Of a DNA stretch of 29,076 bases, positions 15,486 to 27,189 are shown in pieces. A model generated the notes under the pieces. That model searched no databases. It was not told the origin of the DNA and was given only the letters and a program-made list of their open reading frames with translations. The position numbers and the translations under genes were made by a program. Origin of the DNA: a virus; the IMG/VR virus record IMGVR_UViG_3300021579_000030, positions 1-29,076 of that record. One strand, 5' to 3'. Position 1 is the first letter of the stretch, and each line of letters starts with the position of its first letter.

Positions 15486-18400
15486 ATGGGCGTTAATTGG
15501 GATGAATTAAGCGTCAGTCATCCAGGTGTTAATTGGGACAAATTGAGCGCGACTAAACCTGTGCCGAACGACACTTCAACCAATGCCGCGGACATCGGCA
15601 GACTTGGCTTACAAGGCGTTACTGGTGTTGGTGGTGCAATAGGCTATGGTCTTGAAAAAACCGGCATAGCGCCTGAATTTGGCCGTACTTTGCAGGATTC
15701 TGATCTAGCGGTGCAGGAGAAATTAAAAAGCCATTTATCGCCAGCTATGCAAGACGCGGCGGCACAGCCGCTTATCACCGATCAAGGCGAGTTTAACTCT
15801 AATTTTGGTTTGCGTTCATTAGCTGCCAATGTGGTTCCATCAATACCGGGATCAATTGCCATGGGTATGGCGGGAGGGCCGTTAGCGACAGGTGCGACCA
15901 AGGTTTTGCAAGCATTAGGTGTGGGCGCAAAGGCTGCCGGAGTAGTTGGCAGAGGCTTAGGTTTTGGTACATCAGAGGGTGTTTTTTCTGGCGCTCAAAA
16001 TGCTGAACAATGGGGCCATGAACAGCGTGCCAGACCGATAAGTGATTTCGCCAGGCATCCCGCATGGGGACAAGTCCTACAGGATAATAACAATGATCCT
16101 GTAGCAGCTAAAGAAGCGTTAATCAATCAGGGACAGAGTGACATATTTAAAGATACCACATTAAAGACTGGCGGCTTGTCTGCACTCACAGGCGGCGGCA
16201 TGTATGGCGTGTTGAGAGGTGCGAAAGCAACGGCTGCTGATGCAGCAAGATACGGTTTTCTAAAGACGACAGGGAAAAGTGTTGGCACAGAAGCCTTGCA
16301 AGAAGCGCCACAAAGTTATTACGAGCAGAAAACAACCAACCAGGCGACTAAGGATTATGTAGACCCAAATCAGGACGTAAACCAGGGGGCAGTTAATGCA
16401 GGCTTGGTCGGCGGGATATCTGGCGGCGTTATGGGCCTTGGTGGTGGTGTTGCTGGGCTTGGCTTTAGACATCAGACTAAAGTATCTCCACTAACAGGCG
16501 AACCTGTCCCCGAAGTAACACCAGACAGCGGTGCTTTAACCAATGCTTTAAACAATGGCGCTGTTACACAAACAAACACAGCAGATATTATCAACAATGC
16601 CGGTAATCTGGCTGACCAGCTCTATGGCAACGAAGCGGACTTAAATGGCGAACAGGCGACAAGGGGAAATAACAATGTTTCTGGAACAGAAAGTGGAGGC
16701 ATTGGAGAACGCAATGCTGCTCCTACAAACATCGATGAACGTACTTCAATCGGAGAACCAAGAGCTGCACCAGCGTCTGACCAGGCTGGAGCAGGATCAG
16801 GAGACGCAGGTCAAAATTTACAAGACAATCACTTAAGTACTGCTGATGCAATTACACGCGACTTTAATGAAACAGCAACTACCACACCACTCGCAGACGC
16901 GATCCCATCAACCTCACAGGAGACTAGCAATGGCCGGAAAGAAAACACCAGCGAAAAGCAAGACACCAATGCCCCGCAAGAAAGGCTGCTAAACCAGGGT
17001 GCGCTCGGTAATACGGGCGCATTTATTACTACGCAACAATTAAACAATGACAACGCTCAAGCAACAACTAACCAAACTGTATCATCACAACCTGAAGCAC
17101 GGGGAGCAGATACAAGTACCGCCGTTAATACTCAGTCTGGTACAGAGCAAGCGCCAGGGCAATCTGTTCAAGAGGCAGGTCAAGCTTCTATTGTTGATAA
17201 AGCAACTGGCTTACCGTTTACCACCAAGTCATCAGCGTTAAAGGCGTTAAGCAGTAAGACTGCTTATCCAGAAGCCACACCAGCTACGCATGAAATCAAG
17301 GGCAGTCCAGATACAGGATTTGTGCTTGCTCCTAAACAAATACAGCAAACCAATGAAAATAACACCGCCGGACGACAACAGGTTCAAGCACCAACTACAG
17401 ATAACGCGAGTACTGGCGAGGCTGAAGCAGGGGCGCAACAAAATAAAACCGAAGCTCAGTCGGTGGATTCACAACCGGCGGTTACTGGCTTAGCAACTAC
17501 CGAGCTTTCCTCGGCAGTTTCCGACATGATCAACAATGAGGTCATGAAGCCTGTTGTCTCTAAGTCTATACGCGATGATGGGCAGAAGGTTCTTGATGCG
17601 CATGCAACCGGCGATATTGAGACGCTGAAAGCGCTGCAAAATAAATACGCCATGGAGACTAAGCGAGGCGCTGATGCAGTGCATAAGGCAGCCACACTGT
17701 CGATTAAGCATTATGATCAGCAGGCAATCAAGCAACCGGCAAGCAATTCTCAACAAGCTTCTGGGCAACAAGCTTCTAAACAGCATGTCTCTGAGCAACA
17801 AAAGCCATCGGTTACTGCACAGTCTATCCCGGACAAATACAAAAGCGATATGAATAAGGAAGCAGTTTCTTCTCTGCTACCTTTTAATATTTTTGGCAAC
17901 AAGTCACATCTGCTGGCTAACTCCATCGGTAAATTAATGGAGTCAGCTGCGAAATCAAGCACCCGAGTGATAGATGCATTTGGCGGTAGCGGAGGCTATA
18001 CGCATTACCTTGCGCATACCGGTGCATTACCTAAAGGTTCTATCTTAAATGAATTTGACCCTATGCGTGCGATTGCCCATAAGCAAATTAAGGATAATCC
18101 AAACGCGGTTCGTGATGCGGCTCAGGGTTTTGAGGATTATGTTCTTAGTAAACTTGATATTCCCACATCAAATATCGGCAATGAGCATGTTGATAATTTA
18201 AAAAGGATTAGGACAGAACTCACCCAATGGGCGCGTGATCAATTACATGCGCACGCTATTCCCGGGCAGGATTATGTTGCTAAAGGCAAGAGTAATACAC
18301 CGATTGAAATGCAGGACAACCCAAGTACGGCTGGTCTGTATTACTTCCTACAATCACAATCATTCAACTTTATCCCTATACAGTCCGACACCAGCAGCAC

Positions 18401-21400
18401 AGGCAATTTTAGAGTGCCTGGATTTGCCTTTATTACTATTGACAATAAAACAGGGAAGGTCAAGAAATTTGGCCGTGGTAAGATTTACCTTGATAACAAG
18501 AAAGAAATTATCAAGAATGCATCTGAGCGTACCAAGAACGTTGATACTCGGCGCGGGAATGGCTGGGAATTAATCAGGGATGAAGCAGGTAAAGGCGATC
18601 TGGTAACGGTAGACACTAGTTACTTGAACAAAGGTAAAGTTAAAACTTCCAATTACAGCAAGGCGACTGAAGAAGACGCTAATCCTGATGTTTATTTACA
18701 GAAAGTCACTGATAATCTCTTGCCTGCCTGGGAGCGTGGAGCTAAGCTTGTTATCACTAATAACTGGAATGATGACGTAGCGAATACGCTTGAGTCATTA
18801 GGCTTCCATGTTTACCAAACCCAGCGTTCAGACGCACTTCAAACCGGAGATAACAATGAACTCGTCGCCCTCAACTTCGACCCAGGAACCAATGAGATTT
18901 ACAGCACAGGAGAATCTTTGGCTAATGAGCCTTCCGGACAAACTGCTGGAGAAGTTAACACTACAGGAAATGGCAACACTGGTCAGAACGGACAGCAGTC
19001 AGTGGCCCCAGGAACTAATCAAGAAGGTGGAACCGTACATCGACCTGACGGAGGATTAGACGAGCCGACATTATTTAGCAAGAAGACCGAAGAAACCACT
19101 CGATTTGGCAGCAAGGTATTCAATGGCAAGCTAATCCCCTGGGTAAAAACATGGATGTGGGGTGGTGATGGTAATGCCGCTGGGCATTTCAGTTTTCCGT
19201 CTGATGCTTTAATCAGGCAGTCATCTAAATACGTTCCTAAAAAAACAGTGACGCTTTATCGCGCACATGACAAAAATATAAAAGATTCTGCTCTGCAGTC
19301 ATGGACTCATGATAAGGACATCGCCCAGCAAATGGCCGAAGATTCTGGGCGAGAATTAATATCCAGAGAATTTGCGCCAGAACAAATACTGATAGATCTA
19401 TCCTTGTTTGATAAGTCAGTGCAGCAGCATATTCTTGAGCATAACTGGGATGAGGTTATTGTAGCCACTGGTGATGCGGCTGCATATATTCAAGGCGTGC
19501 GGGAGCAATCGGAACAAGCGCAGAGCAAGTTCAGCAAAGCATCATCACAAGATGTAGGCATCCTGAAGGAATATGCCAAAGACGATGATATCTTCAGGCA
19601 CCCGATAAGCGACAAAATAACAATCCGTGGAATCATGGAGGATATAGCACCTGATTTTAGCTATGTAGGCGTTCAGCACATAGGGGCTATGACTCGCTAT
19701 ACTTTCATGACTGATAAGGCACAAAGCTTCTTTGTAATGGAAAATGAAGGCAATGTATGGATAGATGTAAGCGAACTAACAGAGGGCAGTCGTGGCAATG
19801 CTATTTATGCGGCAGTAGGTAATTATGCAGCCAATACGGACAAGGTTTATATCGGCTATCCTGAAGGCTTAACCAAAGCTGCTGTTATTGCCAGGAACAA
19901 AGCCATGCTGTCGCTGGCTTTGCGTTATGGCCGGGTGGACTTTCTTGCGCCATCAAAAGAGCAGTTAAAAGGCGATGCTGCCAAAGGTATACCGCCGTTA
20001 AAATGGGATGGCGACTATGTTGACAAGGTCAGTGCCTTGATAGACACTGTCACCTCCCATCTATACGCAAACATACCAGAACTTAAGGGCTATAAATATG
20101 ACTTCGACAATGAGCAATTTGAAGACAGACTTGGACGCCCAGCAGGCAAGGGATGGCTTCATAGAATTATCGGCTCAGCAAGTGGAAGAGCATCTAAAGC
20201 GGGTGAGACGACATTACGCCAAGGTGTTTTCCTCCAGTCCCTTACATCAAGCACGCGCGGCGAAAAATCCGAATTACTGGAACGAATTCAATCCGGGATG
20301 CTGGAATCTGCCAGACGACGCGGAATAGATGGCATATTCAGCAAGCAGCAGAATAATGTAGCCAACCCACACACCAAAGCCAGCCTGTTAACCGCCATGC
20401 GGGACAGGCTTGACAAAGAATACGGCAAAGGCTGGAGTGACAGACTGCTTGCTACTGACAAGTTTAAGATTATTGGCAGGGATGAGGCCATTGCTATTGG
20501 CGGAGCGAAGGCTGCTGGTGCTCAGGGCTTTTATAATGCCAAGGATGATACATCATACCTGGTGGCCGAAAACATTGGCAAGACTGATGATCTTAAGGGC
20601 TTACTATTACACGAAATTTCTACTCACCAATTATCACTGATCCGCACCGACCCAGAATTCCAAAGCATCCTCAAGCAGCTTGAAAATCTGCATAAGCTTG
20701 GCAACAAGAAAGTCAAGGAGGCTTTTGACCGGGTTCCAAAAGATACTAATCCTAAGCATGTATGGGAAGAGACGGCTGCCTATCTCGTCCAATATTCACC
20801 CGACCTACCTATATCCAGAAAAATAATCGCCTGGTTCCGTAACGCCATCCGCGCTATCGGCAAGGCATTACCACCACTGGACCGCCTGCGTTTTTACCGC
20901 TGGGCCGATGAGCTAGATGAGAATGACATCGTATTTATAGCAAATGCGGCGTTGCGGTCGGCTCCTGATAGTTTGGTGTTTGATCAGGTGGGGCGTAATG
21001 GCGGCATCATGACCAGTGCCTTTGCTCCTGATAAGGTAAAGCCAGATTATAAAGGCGAGTATTTCCATGGCGATGCTGATGTTAACAAAGTCATGCAGTC
21101 AAATGGACTAGTAGTTATAAAAAACCCTACCAGAGCACGATCCTTAAAATTAGCTGATGCGGATATGTATTCAGATATAAGAGGGGTAGTTGATAACGCG
21201 ACAGGGAATCTTTATATAGCCAGTAGCTCATCATCTTTGCATGATTCGATAATAGACGCTGCCGGACTTCCTAATAATGGCGACTATGACAAGCTTAATA
21301 TTCCTGCAAAGGCTATTTATAGTTATCCTCGTAATATTTTTTCTGATGATATTTCTGGCGATGGCGTAAAATACAGCTTTGCCGGCCAGCATTCTGCAAC

Positions 21401-24400
21401 CGCAGACACTTACCTGTTAGACACCGCCAAGCAGCGTCTTGAATCTGGAGAGGATGCTGAGCAAGTTAGGCAAGATACTGGATGGAGCATTGGCGATGAC
21501 GGTAAACCTCGCTACGAAATCAGCGACAAAGACGCAGCCTTAACCAATACGGCACAGGATGCAATCATAGAAGCCAATCCTGATACCGTTTATAGTCTTG
21601 ACGAGGTGATTAATCATCCCAGGCTGTTTGCTGCCTATCCAGCTATGAAGAACCTTCACGTGAAGTTTGGTCAACCTGGAGAAATATCAGGCTCTTATCA
21701 TAATGGTGTTATCGAGCTAGGTAAAAACAACGATAAAATATTATCGACCTTGCTCCATGAAATACAGCACGGCATTCAAAACGTGGAAGGTTTCGCCCGT
21801 GGCGGTTCAGTAAACGGACTTGGTTATTCTGACTTCAGTGAGCACTACAAACACAGGCTTGACACGTTGCGAGACCTGGCTGATGAAGAGCGCAAAGCAG
21901 GAAATGAAGCCAAGGCTAAGGTATTGGAAACGCAACGGGCGCAGTTGTATTATCCAGCTCAATATGAAGCATACCTGCGGTTGGCTGGCGAGGTTGAGGC
22001 GCGTAACACAGAAGCGCGAATGAACATGAGTGATGCGGAGCGCAAGGCTACATCGCCCAAGGCAACAGCGGACACGCCATATAGCGATGTCGTGGTGGTG
22101 TTTAGCGGTAAGCGGATGGATAATGCGCCGCCTCCTGCTAACGCTAATCCAATAGGTCTGTCGAAATGGTTCAATAAAGCAAAAGACTTTGTATCTGGTA
22201 ATGACAGATCAGTAAACAGCCTTGGCGACATTGATTCTATTCTTGCTACCGGAAAGATGCCGCAAGACAAGACTGATATGCAAAGCGTTATGGATAAGGC
22301 CGCAACAATGCTGGTTGATTCATCTCGTCCTTTTGACGTATGGACGCGGAAGCTTGCTAACCAAGTGTTTTCTGGGGAGTTGATACTTGCCAAAGACAGG
22401 GCTAAACGACGCACAGCCATCTTTGAGAAGGAGGCTATGGACAACTATCTTAAGCCTCTGGCTAAAGTTATCGCCAGCATTGCAAAGGAGCATAACCTTG
22501 ATTATAGGGCAGCTAAAGAACTCGCCGGGCAATGGATGACGGTGCGCTATGCGCTGGAAAAGAACCAGGATTACATTAGGCAAGATCAAAAATCCGTTGA
22601 TGATGCGCAAGCTGCCCTTGATGATAAAATAGCACTTGATAAAAAAGAGTTGGCCCAAGGAAAGATTGACGCGCTGCCAGCTAATGGCGCTTTAAAACAA
22701 GCATTATCCAAGGCTAAGACAAAGCAACAGGCAAGACTTTCAGCCATTAATGAACAGCGGCGTATTGATCCCACAGAAGAATCCCTAGCATCGGGCTTAG
22801 CTGGCGGATATAACGACTTTACTGCGCAGCTGTACAAGGATGCCATTGAAAATAAAATCCCCGTAGCGAAGCTTAATGAAGCCTCTAAACATGTCTACGA
22901 TATGCTGGCATGGAAGCTTAATAAAGACCTAGCAGACGGCAAAGTAACCCAGGCTATTGTTGATACCTGGCATAACTCTCCACATTATGTTCCTCTTACC
23001 GGAGATCCAAGTGTGGATGAATCAGAGGATTCTTTATTTTCACATGGCAGCATTAACCAGCAATCAGACAAACAGGCAAAAGGGCGTTCTGGAAGTATTG
23101 CGCAGAATGGTATCGATGCGGCTACTGAGCAGGTACAAAAATCAGCGCGGTTTCATGGCTGGGCTGATTTCAAAGACAAATTTACTCAAATCTATGATGA
23201 ACTTATTCAAAATGAATTAGATGACGGACTAACGCAACAAAAGGCCCAGCATGAGGTTTCAAAGAAATACGGTATTGATAGAGCACCGGAGACAGCATTA
23301 ACTCGTCCATCAGACACCGGACTTATCATTCGCAAAAATGGCCGCAGCTGGGTTTATGATATTAATGATAAGGCGGCGATGGATGCGTTACGCAGTGTCA
23401 ATAAGGAAGATGTTTCCAGCGTATTGCAGCCTGTTGCCTGGTTTACACGTTCCTATGCCCGCATGGTGACGCAATTAATGCCTGGATTTGGTGCGATCAA
23501 TGCGATACGTGATACTTGGGAGCGGTCCGAGAATATTCGCACACGGGCCTTGCCTGGTTATGAAAACATCAACATGGATAAGGTTGCGCGTAACGCCATA
23601 AAAACAGCCGCGAATCCGAAGCTGATTAAGAAATTAATGGGGGTCATGTTTGAAGGCACTAAATTGGCTAATAAGTTCACCGTCAACGAAAACGACCCGG
23701 ATATTAAAACTATCAGAGAGATGATTAGCGAAGGCGGAACCTCAACAGTTGGCGATTATCTAAGCGCGACCAGTGCCACGCTATCAAAGCAAATGAAAGA
23801 TTCGTTGAAATTGTCAACGCAAGCGATGGATGTAGTTAGTGCCTGGAACAACTCCTTTGAACTGGTTTCAAGCTATTCAATTTACAAGGCATTACGGGAC
23901 GCTGGTGTCGATAAAAAGACAGCGGCTAGTGGCACTCTTAACCTAATGAATTTTGGTAAACAAGGAACCGTTGTCGGGCCATTAAAAGCGTTATATGTGT
24001 TTACCAACCCAACCATGCAAGGCGGCCATCAGCTCTTGCAAACATTGGGCACCAAGCATGGTCAGTACCGTGCAGCTGCTTATCTGGTGGCAGGGATTAT
24101 GCTGTATACCTTCCTAAGATCCGGCGATGATGACGACGAGATTGGCATTAACAAGAGAGATGAACTGGGTAATTTTGTACTTGAGCGCAACATCCCCATC
24201 AAGATTGGCGACAACGAGTATTTTAAAATCCCTGTTGGTTTCGGATTACCGCAGTTGGCTTGGTCAACGGCTGTCAATATGAGCAAGTTCATGTTTGGAG
24301 AGCAGGACGCAGTTGATACCGGCGCTGAAATTATGAAGTCGTTTGCCAGGACATTAGCCCCTGTGCAGCCTAGTGAAACATCGATCTCAAACCATCCGTT

Positions 24401-25040
24401 AATTTGGGCCACCCAAACTTTTACGCCACAGATAGCCAAACCATTAGCTAATATTGCACTGGATGTGAATACGTTTGGATCACCGCTTACGAATGCAAAG
24501 TTTAATAAAGCCGACATTGCCAATGCCTTGCAGGGTCGTAAATCAACGCCAGAAGCATATAAGATGATAGCTTTGGAACTGGCTAAGTTTGGCATTAACG
24601 TTTACCCTGAGCAAGTTAGAGAGATTATCAAGGGCTATGCTGTAGGGCCTATGAATGAAATTATTAAGGAGATGGTGGATAACCCTCATAAGGAAAGCAT
24701 AGGACGGAATACAGTGTCACCATTGTTTGATAGGTATATTTCTATGCAAGACAGGTCAGATTTAAAAGAGCGTCTGTATTATCGTTATCGTGACAGAATG
24801 AACAAGGTTATGGTAAAGAAGTCGGTTGGTGATGAATTGTCACCAAGAGAGGAAAGTCTTGCCAAGCTTTCAGTTAGTGTTAAAAGAATTGAGGGCAGGG
24901 CAAATGGCAAACTTGCTGCGGCTTCAAGAGTAGAGAAAAGACATAAACATTTTATTAGCCCATACCGTAGACAGGCCGATAAGCTTCACGAAACGGCTAT
25001 GAAGCTGGTGTTCGATAATTTTAATGCGGCTGCTGAATGA
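15486..25040 (+). CDS. Giant polyvalent phage protein (MTase-, ART- and peptidase-like domains)
   Basis: A 3184-residue multidomain protein. Residues 2-21 hold two GVNWDxLS repeats, then Gly/Ala-rich hydrophobic helices to ~330. Residues ~335-780 are mostly disordered. Residues ~790-1125 resemble a D12-class adenine methyltransferase: DAFGGSGG at 830-837, NEFDP, but DTSY at 1043-1046 where DPPY is expected. Residues ~1195-1345 resemble an ADP-ribosyltransferase: YR at 1258-1259, SWT at 1272-1274, E1323. Residues ~1355-1540 carry a WIDVSELTEGSRGNAIYAA-type domain seen in other polyvalent proteins. HEISTH at 1709-1714 and HEIQH at 2091-2095 (with GEVEAR near 2169) mark two metallopeptidase-like domains. 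The C-terminal ~780 residues resemble LPD38, with a hydrophobic segment near 2865. Such proteins are packaged and ejected to counter host defence; that role is inferred from the family. Confidence 0.85.
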   Translation: MGVNWDELSVSHPGVNWDKLSATKPVPNDTSTNAADIGRLGLQGVTGVGGAIGYGLEKTGIAPEFGRTLQDSDLAVQEKLKSHLSPAMQDAAAQPLITDQGEFNSNFGLRSLAANVVPSIPGSIAMGMAGGPLATGATKVLQALGVGAKAAGVVGRGLGFGTSEGVFSGAQNAEQWGHEQRARPISDFARHPAWGQVLQDNNNDPVAAKEALINQGQSDIFKDTTLKTGGLSALTGGGMYGVLRGAKATAADAARYGFLKTTGKSVGTEALQEAPQSYYEQKTTNQATKDYVDPNQDVNQGAVNAGLVGGISGGVMGLGGGVAGLGFRHQTKVSPLTGEPVPEVTPDSGALTNALNNGAVTQTNTADIINNAGNLADQLYGNEADLNGEQATRGNNNVSGTESGGIGERNAAPTNIDERTSIGEPRAAPASDQAGAGSGDAGQNLQDNHLSTADAITRDFNETATTTPLADAIPSTSQETSNGRKENTSEKQDTNAPQERLLNQGALGNTGAFITTQQLNNDNAQATTNQTVSSQPEARGADTSTAVNTQSGTEQAPGQSVQEAGQASIVDKATGLPFTTKSSALKALSSKTAYPEATPATHEIKGSPDTGFVLAPKQIQQTNENNTAGRQQVQAPTTDNASTGEAEAGAQQNKTEAQSVDSQPAVTGLATTELSSAVSDMINNEVMKPVVSKSIRDDGQKVLDAHATGDIETLKALQNKYAMETKRGADAVHKAATLSIKHYDQQAIKQPASNSQQASGQQASKQHVSEQQKPSVTAQSIPDKYKSDMNKEAVSSLLPFNIFGNKSHLLANSIGKLMESAAKSSTRVIDAFGGSGGYTHYLAHTGALPKGSILNEFDPMRAIAHKQIKDNPNAVRDAAQGFEDYVLSKLDIPTSNIGNEHVDNLKRIRTELTQWARDQLHAHAIPGQDYVAKGKSNTPIEMQDNPSTAGLYYFLQSQSFNFIPIQSDTSSTGNFRVPGFAFITIDNKTGKVKKFGRGKIYLDNKKEIIKNASERTKNVDTRRGNGWELIRDEAGKGDLVTVDTSYLNKGKVKTSNYSKATEEDANPDVYLQKVTDNLLPAWERGAKLVITNNWNDDVANTLESLGFHVYQTQRSDALQTGDNNELVALNFDPGTNEIYSTGESLANEPSGQTAGEVNTTGNGNTGQNGQQSVAPGTNQEGGTVHRPDGGLDEPTLFSKKTEETTRFGSKVFNGKLIPWVKTWMWGGDGNAAGHFSFPSDALIRQSSKYVPKKTVTLYRAHDKNIKDSALQSWTHDKDIAQQMAEDSGRELISREFAPEQILIDLSLFDKSVQQHILEHNWDEVIVATGDAAAYIQGVREQSEQAQSKFSKASSQDVGILKEYAKDDDIFRHPISDKITIRGIMEDIAPDFSYVGVQHIGAMTRYTFMTDKAQSFFVMENEGNVWIDVSELTEGSRGNAIYAAVGNYAANTDKVYIGYPEGLTKAAVIARNKAMLSLALRYGRVDFLAPSKEQLKGDAAKGIPPLKWDGDYVDKVSALIDTVTSHLYANIPELKGYKYDFDNEQFEDRLGRPAGKGWLHRIIGSASGRASKAGETTLRQGVFLQSLTSSTRGEKSELLERIQSGMLESARRRGIDGIFSKQQNNVANPHTKASLLTAMRDRLDKEYGKGWSDRLLATDKFKIIGRDEAIAIGGAKAAGAQGFYNAKDDTSYLVAENIGKTDDLKGLLLHEISTHQLSLIRTDPEFQSILKQLENLHKLGNKKVKEAFDRVPKDTNPKHVWEETAAYLVQYSPDLPISRKIIAWFRNAIRAIGKALPPLDRLRFYRWADELDENDIVFIANAALRSAPDSLVFDQVGRNGGIMTSAFAPDKVKPDYKGEYFHGDADVNKVMQSNGLVVIKNPTRARSLKLADADMYSDIRGVVDNATGNLYIASSSSSLHDSIIDAAGLPNNGDYDKLNIPAKAIYSYPRNIFSDDISGDGVKYSFAGQHSATADTYLLDTAKQRLESGEDAEQVRQDTGWSIGDDGKPRYEISDKDAALTNTAQDAIIEANPDTVYSLDEVINHPRLFAAYPAMKNLHVKFGQPGEISGSYHNGVIELGKNNDKILSTLLHEIQHGIQNVEGFARGGSVNGLGYSDFSEHYKHRLDTLRDLADEERKAGNEAKAKVLETQRAQLYYPAQYEAYLRLAGEVEARNTEARMNMSDAERKATSPKATADTPYSDVVVVFSGKRMDNAPPPANANPIGLSKWFNKAKDFVSGNDRSVNSLGDIDSILATGKMPQDKTDMQSVMDKAATMLVDSSRPFDVWTRKLANQVFSGELILAKDRAKRRTAIFEKEAMDNYLKPLAKVIASIAKEHNLDYRAAKELAGQWMTVRYALEKNQDYIRQDQKSVDDAQAALDDKIALDKKELAQGKIDALPANGALKQALSKAKTKQQARLSAINEQRRIDPTEESLASGLAGGYNDFTAQLYKDAIENKIPVAKLNEASKHVYDMLAWKLNKDLADGKVTQAIVDTWHNSPHYVPLTGDPSVDESEDSLFSHGSINQQSDKQAKGRSGSIAQNGIDAATEQVQKSARFHGWADFKDKFTQIYDELIQNELDDGLTQQKAQHEVSKKYGIDRAPETALTRPSDTGLIIRKNGRSWVYDINDKAAMDALRSVNKEDVSSVLQPVAWFTRSYARMVTQLMPGFGAINAIRDTWERSENIRTRALPGYENINMDKVARNAIKTAANPKLIKKLMGVMFEGTKLANKFTVNENDPDIKTIREMISEGGTSTVGDYLSATSATLSKQMKDSLKLSTQAMDVVSAWNNSFELVSSYSIYKALRDAGVDKKTAASGTLNLMNFGKQGTVVGPLKALYVFTNPTMQGGHQLLQTLGTKHGQYRAAAYLVAGIMLYTFLRSGDDDDEIGINKRDELGNFVLERNIPIKIGDNEYFKIPVGFGLPQLAWSTAVNMSKFMFGEQDAVDTGAEIMKSFARTLAPVQPSETSISNHPLIWATQTFTPQIAKPLANIALDVNTFGSPLTNAKFNKADIANALQGRKSTPEAYKMIALELAKFGINVYPEQVREIIKGYAVGPMNEIIKEMVDNPHKESIGRNTVSPLFDRYISMQDRSDLKERLYYRYRDRMNKVMVKKSVGDELSPREESLAKLSVSVKRIEGRANGKLAAASRVEKRHKHFISPYRRQADKLHETAMKLVFDNFNAAAE
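16675..16836 (+). CDS. Nested +1-frame leucine-zipper microprotein
   Basis: A 53-residue protein read in frame +1 within the giant gene. GGGGA lies 7 bases before ATG. Hydrophobic residues occupy positions 3, 7, 10, 14, 17, 21, 24, 31, 35 and 38 with Asn at 28: an unbroken alternating 4-3 heptad, and Asn in the core is typical of dimeric zippers. Surroundings are Glu/Gln/Lys (LEQKVEAL, ENQELHQRL, RLEQDQE). Codons are ordinary (CTG, GAG, CAG). In the giant frame the same DNA is Gly/Ala/Ser/Asn linker rich in GGA. Such a zipper by accident is very unlikely. It may be a true nested gene, or a former gene now overprinted. Function unknown; it could oligomerise. Confidence 0.65.
   Translation: MFLEQKVEALENAMLLLQTSMNVLQSENQELHQRLTRLEQDQETQVKIYKTIT
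16930..16992 (+). CDS. Nested +1-frame basic 20-residue peptide
   Basis: The peptide is MAGKKTPAKSKTPMPRKKGC, Lys/Pro-rich, in the same +1 frame as the zipper ORF and 93 bases after it. AGGAG lies exactly 7 bases before the ATG, an ideal ribosome site. The frame is open further upstream (to 16846), but no ribosome site precedes that ATG. It is so short that chance cannot be excluded; its basic composition and the spacing favour a real or formerly real gene. Function unknown. Confidence 0.45.
   Translation: MAGKKTPAKSKTPMPRKKGC
18856..19059 (+). CDS. Nested +1-frame 67-residue protein
   Basis: Reads in frame +1 from ATG 18856, with GGAG 6 bases upstream. After a Ser/Thr opening, the sequence FTAQENLWLMSLPDKLLEKL, LQEMATLVRTDSSQWPQELI and KKVEPYIDLTED looks like a small folded helical protein with a Trp and acidic tail. 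Codons are ordinary, whereas the giant-protein frame here is a Gly/Asn/Gln linker (TGNGNTGQNGQQSVAPGTNQ) between the methyltransferase-like and ART-like domains. It ends at TAG 19057-19059. A second in-frame ATG at 18892 has AGGAA just 3 bases upstream. No family recognised. Either a nested gene or an overprinted relic. Confidence 0.6.
   Translation: MNSSPSTSTQEPMRFTAQENLWLMSLPDKLLEKLTLQEMATLVRTDSSQWPQELIKKVEPYIDLTED
20098..20328 (+). CDS. Nested +1-frame 76-residue protein
   Basis: Frame +1 from ATG 20098, with AAGGG 8 bases upstream. It contains an amphipathic helix (LSAQQVEEHLKRVRRHYAKVF), then SSPLHQARAAKNPNYWNEFN, PGCWNLPDDAE, an ordered-looking Trp/Asn/Pro end. Codons in this frame are common, while the giant frame at 20290-20330 uses AGA, CGA and ATA. 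However, the giant frame here (YDFDNEQFEDRLGRP, GETTLRQGVFLQSL) also resembles conserved polyvalent-domain sequence, so this would be true dual coding rather than a linker. Confidence is lower for that reason. Ends at TAG 20326-20328. Confidence 0.5.
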   Translation: MTSTMSNLKTDLDAQQARDGFIELSAQQVEEHLKRVRRHYAKVFSSSPLHQARAAKNPNYWNEFNPGCWNLPDDAE

Positions 25041-26009: not shown

Positions 26010-26969
26010 TTATGACCGTATTTTACTAAGCAATTCGGATTCTTTCATCACAATATAGCCACGCTGCTTGGTTAAATAATCAATGGCTTTTGTTTCAGGC
26101 ATTAATAAGGCATCAAAAGGAATAGATCGTATACTTGGCTGCATGGTGCCAGGATCAAACGACATCACCCATTGTGAGTTCCACATCATGGAAGCAACCA
26201 AGCCGTCAACGGTTTTACTGTCGATTACCGGCCATTGTTCAGGCGGCTTTACTCCTGCCTGTCTCATGGTGGCATTGCAGAATTCAAGGTAATCATCAAA
26301 AGCCAGCCTCGCTTCATTACGGTAAGCGTTGTCGGTTAAGAGCGGGTTGGTTTCTTTGGGCAGGACTTCTTTTGGTAGTACTTCGCCTTCCAATGGTAAG
26401 CGGCTTAATAAGCTCAGTATGTTTATGTAGTTATCCGGTGACACTTCTTTGTAGCTGCAACCGAATTTTTTCTTGATAGCTGACCATTGCCGAATGATGG
26501 CGCCAGCCTGTTTCTCTTTGGGTAGTATTGCAGCGTTAGCTTTCACCATGGCTTTAATGGTGTCCTGCATGTCGAGAGTCAGGCCGCCGGGCAGGGCTAG
26601 TTTTGTTTTTGGGTCTGGGAGTTGGGAAGTAGTGCTTGATAACTGTAGCGCCTTCCTTTCCATCTCCAAAAAGTACCGACGAATCTGACGTCCTTTTTCG
26701 CTGCGTTCGATCATGCCAAGTTCTTTAGCCATGTCGATACTTAGGTGATAGTCGATTTTTGCTTTTGCGCCACTTGGTAGCTGCTCCATAAATTTATGGA
26801 TCAGGTAGTCTGTATTTTCAATAAAACTATATGCCTTTATTCTTTTTTTAATCCAGTCTGAAAAGTCTTGAGCAGATTCTAAAAAGGTATGCAGCAAACG
26901 TGCATCAACAAGTTGGGCGGGTACGCCAGATAATTCACCAGAAAAAACGGGGATAAGTTGATTGTTCAT
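26010..26969 (-). CDS. AntA/AntB-type phage antirepressor
   Basis: From ATG at 26969 (MNNQLIPVFSGELSGVPAQL) the protein has 319 residues. Residues ~1-110 match the AntA/AntB domain: LVDARLLHTFLESAQDFSDW, IKKRIKAYSFIENTDYLI, YHLSIDMAKELGMIERSEKG and RQIRRYFLEMERK. The rest resembles P22AR-type C-termini (AIKKKFGCSYKEV, ILSLLSRLPLEGE). Such proteins inactivate a prophage repressor and favour lytic growth. The frame stays open to a GTG at 27065, but that extension covers the structured leader RNA; I prefer 26969, where the family domain begins. Its ribosome site is weak (GGA about 10 bases away), which fits RNA-controlled translation. Confidence 0.8.
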   Translation of the reverse strand: MNNQLIPVFSGELSGVPAQLVDARLLHTFLESAQDFSDWIKKRIKAYSFIENTDYLIHKFMEQLPSGAKAKIDYHLSIDMAKELGMIERSEKGRQIRRYFLEMERKALQLSSTTSQLPDPKTKLALPGGLTLDMQDTIKAMVKANAAILPKEKQAGAIIRQWSAIKKKFGCSYKEVSPDNYINILSLLSRLPLEGEVLPKEVLPKETNPLLTDNAYRNEARLAFDDYLEFCNATMRQAGVKPPEQWPVIDSKTVDGLVASMMWNSQWVMSFDPGTMQPSIRSIPFDALLMPETKAIDYLTKQRGYIVMKESELLSKIRS

Positions 26970-27189
26970 GATTATAATTCCGTAACGAGTTAAGTACTCG
27001 GCTACACGATGCCAATCATGGAGCCGAACTAAGTGGGTTGGCATACCGGCGTTACGACCGGCCACTCTTTCAAGTGCCCACTTAGCCCGACATAATAACG
27101 ATGCTAAATTTGTGACATAAAAAAACCGCTTTCGCGGCTCAATGCCGTAACGTTTCGAGATGCCAATCCCGTGTCGCCATGTGGACGAC
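26970..27189 (-). ncRNA. C4-like antisense RNA and antirepressor leader
   Basis: Minus-strand RNA upstream of the antirepressor. CTAAGTGGG (27077-27085, minus sense) pairs with CCCACTTAG (27029-27037); with wobbles the stem extends to about 12-13 bp. TTGGCAT, present twice (within 27008-27017 and 27159-27168), is complementary to ATGCCAA (27038-27044). A GTTACGG element is also present twice (26980-26987 and 27145-27152). A hairpin CGGCT...AGCCG spans 26999-27026. An intrinsic terminator separates a ~72-base upstream RNA from this region. The layout matches C4/CI-type control known from phages P1 and P4, where a short RNA pairs with the antirepressor leader. Assignment is by layout and complementarity, not by covariance search. 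Confidence 0.6.
27119..27139 (-). terminator. Intrinsic terminator in the antirepressor leader
   Basis: On the minus strand: AGCCGC, tetraloop GAAA, GCGGTT, within a run of seven U. Short but GC-rich with a stable GNRA loop. It ends a ~72-base RNA starting near 27189 and lies before the antirepressor start, so it acts as an attenuator or matures a short RNA. Confidence 0.75.

Follow-up and report, generated by a model that had tools for sequence, protein, structure and literature searches.

The giant polyvalent protein gene of the virus contig analysed here (the window, 29,076 bases at its full length) very probably hosts several overprinted genes, and the frame that we call N4 is best explained as a protein-coding gene lying wholly in its +1 frame. 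Comparison of sequences indicates that N4 is one member of a wider, previously unannotated arrangement. The initial annotation had proposed that small +1 genes are nested inside giant polyvalent genes, and this holds for N4 and for three families, termed A, C and BHI, that occur in many phages.

Four +1 frames in the giant gene of the window

The virion genes of the window lie on the + strand. The giant gene (15486..25040, + strand), the final gene of the virion block, is an open frame of 3184 aa and serves as the host frame of the nested genes; gene order suggests that its product is located in the virion. It contains an LPD37 domain (19560..20252, + strand; aa 1359-1589; Pfam PF18853, E 6e-70) that scores 235.9 bits, above the curated cut-off of 27, and it also matches LPD23, LPD38, phrog_14770 and other PHROGs. 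On the minus strand, an anti-repressor-like gene at 26010-27065 (PHROG anti-repressor Ant, E 1e-49) suggests that the phage is temperate.

Four frames had been listed inside the giant gene, and their positions were exactly confirmed: each is an open +1 frame wholly inside the giant frame on the same strand, with an ATG start and a Shine-Dalgarno (SD) core before it. N1 (16675..16836, + strand) encodes 53 coiled-coil-like aa behind AAGGGG at 16661..16666 (+ strand; anti-SD energy -7.6 kcal/mol). N2 (16930..16992, + strand) encodes 20 aa and is preceded by AGGAG at 16918..16922 (+ strand; -7.4 kcal/mol). N3 (18856..19059, + strand; 67 aa), with GGAG at 18846..18849 (+ strand; -6.6 kcal/mol), lies under the linker 3' of a methyltransferase-like region. 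N4 (20098..20328, + strand; 76 aa) follows AAGGG at 20085..20089 (+ strand; -4.9 kcal/mol), overlaps the C-terminal part of LPD37 and belongs to family A. Its ATG is formed out of TAT-GAC, which encodes the giant's conserved Tyr-Asp.

As had been described, N1, N2 and N3 lie under linker-like giant sequence: the residues GADERSTNPQ make up 89%, 85% and 84% of the giant frame there, compared to 57%, 55% and 61% of the nested frame. For N4, the proposal of a nested +1 gene stood; it lies beneath the conserved C-terminal part of LPD37 and not beneath a linker. The claim that the nested frame has normal codons and the giant frame odd ones did not survive. By the window's codon usage, the giant frame fits equally well or better over N1-N4, and low codon adaptation of the giant frame was seen over N3 (3rd percentile) and N4 (7th percentile) alone.

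Perhaps such frames are by-products of the giant's own conservation and composition? Linkers rich in G, A, N, D and T would leave few +1 stops, and conserved codons would force similar peptides in relatives. In the window, the giant's +1 frame indeed has 149 stops compared to 333 in +2, and in the all-against-all comparison described below, close relatives share many +1 and +2 matches of this kind. With the protein sequence of the giant fixed, the nested frame would be open by chance with a probability of 0.35 for N1, 1.00 for N2, 0.042 for N3 and 0.027 for N4. Because N2 is open in 100% of synonymous recodings, its openness is no evidence for a gene. When the giant's synonymous codons were permuted, 0.98 +1 ATG open reading frames (ORFs) of at least 50 aa with an SD energy of -6 or lower were expected; the giant has 4 (P=0.003). 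Two of these 4 were missing from the earlier list (window positions 17674-17853 and 23017-23220), and their composition looks out-of-frame.

N1, N2 and N3 had no homologues in any search, the matches of N1 being generic coiled-coil only. We noticed by eye a likeness of N3 to family BHI and rejected it: an iterated BHI profile had no match in the window at E<=10 except an unrelated one at 8.1. We conclude that N3 is probably a gene without known relatives, the statistics being suggestive, and that N1 is possibly a gene, on weak evidence; gene status is unsupported for N2. The by-product reading is the default for N2, possible for N1, and possible but less so for N3.

Family A beneath the LPD37 domain

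A tblastn search with the 76 aa of N4 against 50,697 phage records matched Erwinia Pavtokvirus genomes only, and weakly (best E 4e-3). In these phages (PEp14, Pavtok, Stean) the match lies in the +1 frame inside a 15-kb giant gene. Scans of viral contigs with the window's LPD37 stretch and with N4 alone gave nothing usable, and a query designated A1 had no match in genome contigs. From the LPD37 stretch we gathered 118 loci, comprising the window, named phages, a plasmid, bacterial genome contigs and viral contigs. About 105 of the 118 LPD37 giants (79 non-redundant) have a family A relative in +1, beneath the C-terminal part of LPD37, with the consensus core RLKExxSSIPFHAxRAAxxPDYW. A six-frame iterated profile search of the 118 loci gave 108 matches at E<1e-3, of which 102 are in +1 and adjoin LPD37; the other six come from a contig present in two copies, where they adjoin extra LPD37 fragments. 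The giant frame stays open across the family A gene in all cases checked.

The contig with the extra fragments is an observation of its own. Locus L083 and its duplicate L085 (6903-7334, 8754-9029, 9876-10340) carry at least three partial LPD37 C-termini with A frames and no full giant among them. They sit downstream of an LPD37 giant and resemble the orphan cassettes of polymorphic toxin loci.

We then generated 100 synonymous versions of each giant, with its protein unchanged and its codons drawn from its own usage, and used a profile built from the other half of the loci to score the +1 frame. In 78 of the 79 non-redundant family A loci the real sequence scored above every recoding (median, 50.9 compared to 1.8 bits), with halves that were random and not split by clade, so that some relatives fell on both sides, and with dinucleotides and RNA structure not preserved. 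Since the giants are often merely 30-45% identical, little synonymous history is shared across halves. N4 itself scored 33.4 bits against a profile that had not been trained on it, and the best of its 100 recodings scored 9.9. The nested protein is hence conserved beyond what the host frame imposes, and the same test gave this result for all 67 C and all 26 BHI loci (below).

Start signals were examined by counting ATG or GTG codons with an SD energy of -5 or lower within the open nested frame. The SD of the family A start is stronger than in recodings in 75 of 79 loci; only 49% reach -5 (39/79, compared to 21% in recodings). In close pairs, nested identity is not above giant identity (0.65 compared to 0.66). 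Flanking giant sequence differs mostly at codon position 3, as in an ordinary gene (0.456 for C pairs; 0.421 and 0.285 otherwise), and the giant's codon positions 1/2/3 under A differ at 0.249/0.181/0.261. Both frames are held under A, as they are under BHI (0.160/0.081/0.135), and this is the substitution pattern of two coding frames. Support for family A is weaker than for family C.

Families C and BHI beneath linkers

Further families came from an all-against-all comparison of the out-of-frame ORFs under giants. Family C (consensus MNLNNWxxQARxHWKEHxPxxYxxLKxxGxLxxALxxAAEQTxxExSxLExxGxxxxEAWEMVREKYLFPPEE) is nested in +1 in giants of Erwinia, Klebsiella (SopranoGao, LASTA), Agrobacterium (Atu_ph08), Ochrobactrum (POI1126), Vibrio (VvAW1), Microcystis (Mwe-JY07) and Pseudomonas (Itty13) phages. 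The Itty13 giant (locus L121, 3987-16325) is an unannotated open frame of 4112 aa; the annotation instead places large hypothetical genes on the other strand. A scan by C alone, blind to giants, found 72 loci. In the combined set of 70 non-redundant C loci, 68 lie in the +1 frame of a frame of at least 800 aa; of the other two, one lies at the edge of a contig and one in a broken giant. In the broken giant (L136, 4962-5330), an intact C ORF is flanked on either side by breaks in the giant frame.

In PHROGs, C aligns with the C-terminus of phrog_938 (length 2185), in keeping with orf33 of Sinorhizobium phage PBC5. An assignment of C to TnpV (Pfam PF14198) was rejected at 20.7 bits against a cut-off of 27 (E 4e-4).

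The recoding test was unambiguous for C: the real sequence beat every recoding in 67 of 67 loci (median, 122.6 compared to 4.6 bits). Under C, the giant's codon positions 1/2/3 differ at 0.317/0.205/0.179, the reverse of the order in the flanks. Giant position 1 falls on the wobble base of the nested codons; the nested frame is the better conserved of the two. Of 237 pairs, 236 are more identical in the nested frame than in the giant one, and in 65 of 67 loci it is the nested frame that better matches the giant's codon usage. Residue entropy under C is 3.35 bits in the giant frame and 3.89 in the nested frame, compared to about 3.8 elsewhere in giants. Since the C frame is constrained and compositionally normal, the giant's linker there is the low-complexity shadow of a gene. 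The giant sequence over N4 is no such shadow, LPD37 being a conserved domain.

BHI (consensus MSAxxxxLPxWLxxPLxxxVITxxEAWxL...LPxxLxxAAxRIxLLEME) is nested in +1 under low-complexity linkers of related giants in 26 of 26 cases. The real sequence topped all recodings in each of them (median, 46.5 compared to -0.8 bits), and entropy is 3.33 bits in the giant frame and 3.79 in the nested one. For C and BHI, these low giant and normal nested entropies bear out the idea that the linker is an overprinted gene. In both Pavtok and Stean, a single ORF holds all three families.

The by-product reading is refuted for A (with N4), C and BHI, by the recoding tests, by the inverted codon-position pattern under C, by the higher identity of the C protein, and by an excess of SD signals over recodings. 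A start with an SD energy of -5 or lower precedes 65 of 67 C genes and 22 of 25 BHI genes, compared to 28% and 23% in recodings. As an account of the nested frames we now regard it as most unlikely. The earlier proposal that nested genes start at their own SD-preceded start codons is upheld for A, C and BHI. It had named two things that together would count against the nested genes, namely nested frames broken by stops in related phages and a lack of stand-alone homologues; in relatives the frames are conserved, and the search for stand-alone homologues found none for A, C or BHI.

Smaller candidate families also lie in +1 under linkers. Candidate family E, of about 150 aa, occupies the place of C in loci L008 (5297-5752), L023 (4502-4951), L065 (1571-2059), L074 (1781-2287), L105 and L107. 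Candidate families F, G and J were seen in L005 (9437-9922), L014 (2901-3428), L016 (4137-4637), L022 (4095-4241), L102 (2951-3112) and L103 (2885-3031), as well as in L062, L065 and L074. The other components of the comparison were rejected, being mostly Arg/Ser/Pro-rich by-products among close relatives.

Could the nested sequence instead be reached by programmed ribosomal frameshifting, giving a shortened giant with an alternative C-terminus? In PBC5 as deposited (L126, 8700-9309), C shares its reading frame with the N-terminal part of the giant in orf33, and a frame change just upstream, relative to Atu_ph08, splits the giant into orf33 and orf23. Some +1 frames are also open for 200-300 codons upstream (L005, L016, L081, L087). 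However, a single indel relative to Atu_ph08 would account for the PBC5 arrangement, perhaps an error of sequencing or a mutation, and the conserved ATG of C has a strong SD and, in many cases, an in-frame stop two to a few codons 5' of it. Frameshifting is thus very improbable; the SD-led starts and the stop just ahead of C point instead to internal initiation.

Origin, precedents and possible roles of the nested genes

How did the linkers arise? Separate small genes between domain genes may, as the initial annotation proposed, have been read through out of frame when those genes fused, or the small genes may have been overprinted later in an existing linker. The C frame is constrained, compositionally normal and of better codon fit, a point in favor of read-through. 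C or E follows the same giant sequence, SWYMGVKYDPRA, as if one slot had been filled by different small genes. The intact C ORF in the broken giant of L136 and the weak, below-cut-off similarity of C to TnpV also speak for read-through. Against it, codon preference is indecisive for A and BHI, nearly all C loci are nested, and no member of the three families was found alone: phage records hold A and C only within giants, and plasmids hold no stand-alone C. A search of 369 genomes of one class found none either, a weak negative in that it returned no match of any kind; the same model did match one named genome. We rate the prospects of an origin by read-through as somewhat short of even.

Small genes nested wholly in +1 within a larger phage gene, with their own SD, are familiar from the Rz/Rz1 spanins, two lysis proteins that form one complex. 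In PEp14, Rz1 is annotated inside Rz. Unlike that pair, the hosts here are giant virion or polyvalent genes, in which three nested genes or more can occur. They are of the kind described as polyvalent proteins of phages and conjugative elements, with LPD-type domains and DarB-like methylase and helicase parts (PMC5512222); a term search of that text found no mention of overlapping genes. Overprinted viral and bacterial genes likewise comprise two proteins in two frames, one of low complexity, but are mostly single cases (PMC8227390, PMC4683798), whereas the present arrangement repeats under the linkers of a class of giant genes.

The closest precedent is an out-of-frame HNH endonuclease hidden in phage DNA methylase genes, in the ShiLan domain and the Pacc40 insertion (PMC11855218). 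As here, a complete alternate-frame gene with its own internal start lies within a longer phage gene, and its in-frame reading is tolerated as a loop (PMC11855218). We considered whether the present inserts are mobile elements of this type, in which a homing endonuclease is concealed out of frame in a host gene. The geometry is shared, with a harmless loop in frame and a gene out of frame (PMC11855218). However, Pfam, PHROG, NCBIfam and PDB searches of the hidden frame found no HNH or other nuclease. Family A is near-universal, in contrast to a patchy homing element, and lies under a conserved domain and not within an insertion. ShiLan and Pacc40 are patchy, presumably homing insertions of actinobacteriophages and have no SD (PMC11855218). 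The genes described here fall into several unrelated non-nuclease families, are SD-led and conserved across phages of Proteobacteria, and in one case lie under a conserved domain. Hence, a mobile-element account is highly doubtful. We found no description of the A, C or BHI genes in the open literature; bioRxiv and most subscription papers lie outside that scope, and a prior description is possible.

We favor the reading that N4 and its counterparts are genes expressed from within the giant gene. Ribosomes would initiate internally on the giant's mRNA, and a separate, mostly helical protein of 55-150 aa would be made in the infected cell from the very mRNA that yields the giant protein. Where a nested gene lies beneath a linker, the low-complexity sequence of the giant is mainly the small gene read out of frame. 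AlphaFold models of A (pLDDT 73) and C (pLDDT 77) are helical, and neither matched the fold of a known structure. Searches of Pfam, PHROGs, NCBIfam and PADLOC gave nothing above cut-off that names a function. The small proteins might act with or on the giant protein, as an assembly partner or a regulator. We put this forward tentatively as the likeliest role because A, C and BHI are found only alongside giants, and such a role would explain the absence of the small proteins where there is no giant. An independent effector in the host cell ranks next.

Whether giant polyvalent genes can be regarded in general as layered operons is, in our estimate, evenly balanced. They would then hold slots between or under their domains, each with an independently translated +1 small gene, their linkers would largely be shadow, and they would conceal conserved partners or effectors. 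Giants of this type in many phages carry hidden genes, mostly beneath what was supposed to be meaningless linker, and annotations miss this layer of proteins. The absence of A, C and BHI from Pfam, PHROGs and NCBIfam as searched follows from gene callers dropping ORFs that lie within longer ORFs. If translated, these genes would add conserved, uncharacterized proteins to phages of several genera, including named Klebsiella and Pseudomonas phages. They offer a concrete account of some "disordered linkers". With three unrelated pairs and many sequences of each, they also provide a clean system for how a gene functions while another overprints it.
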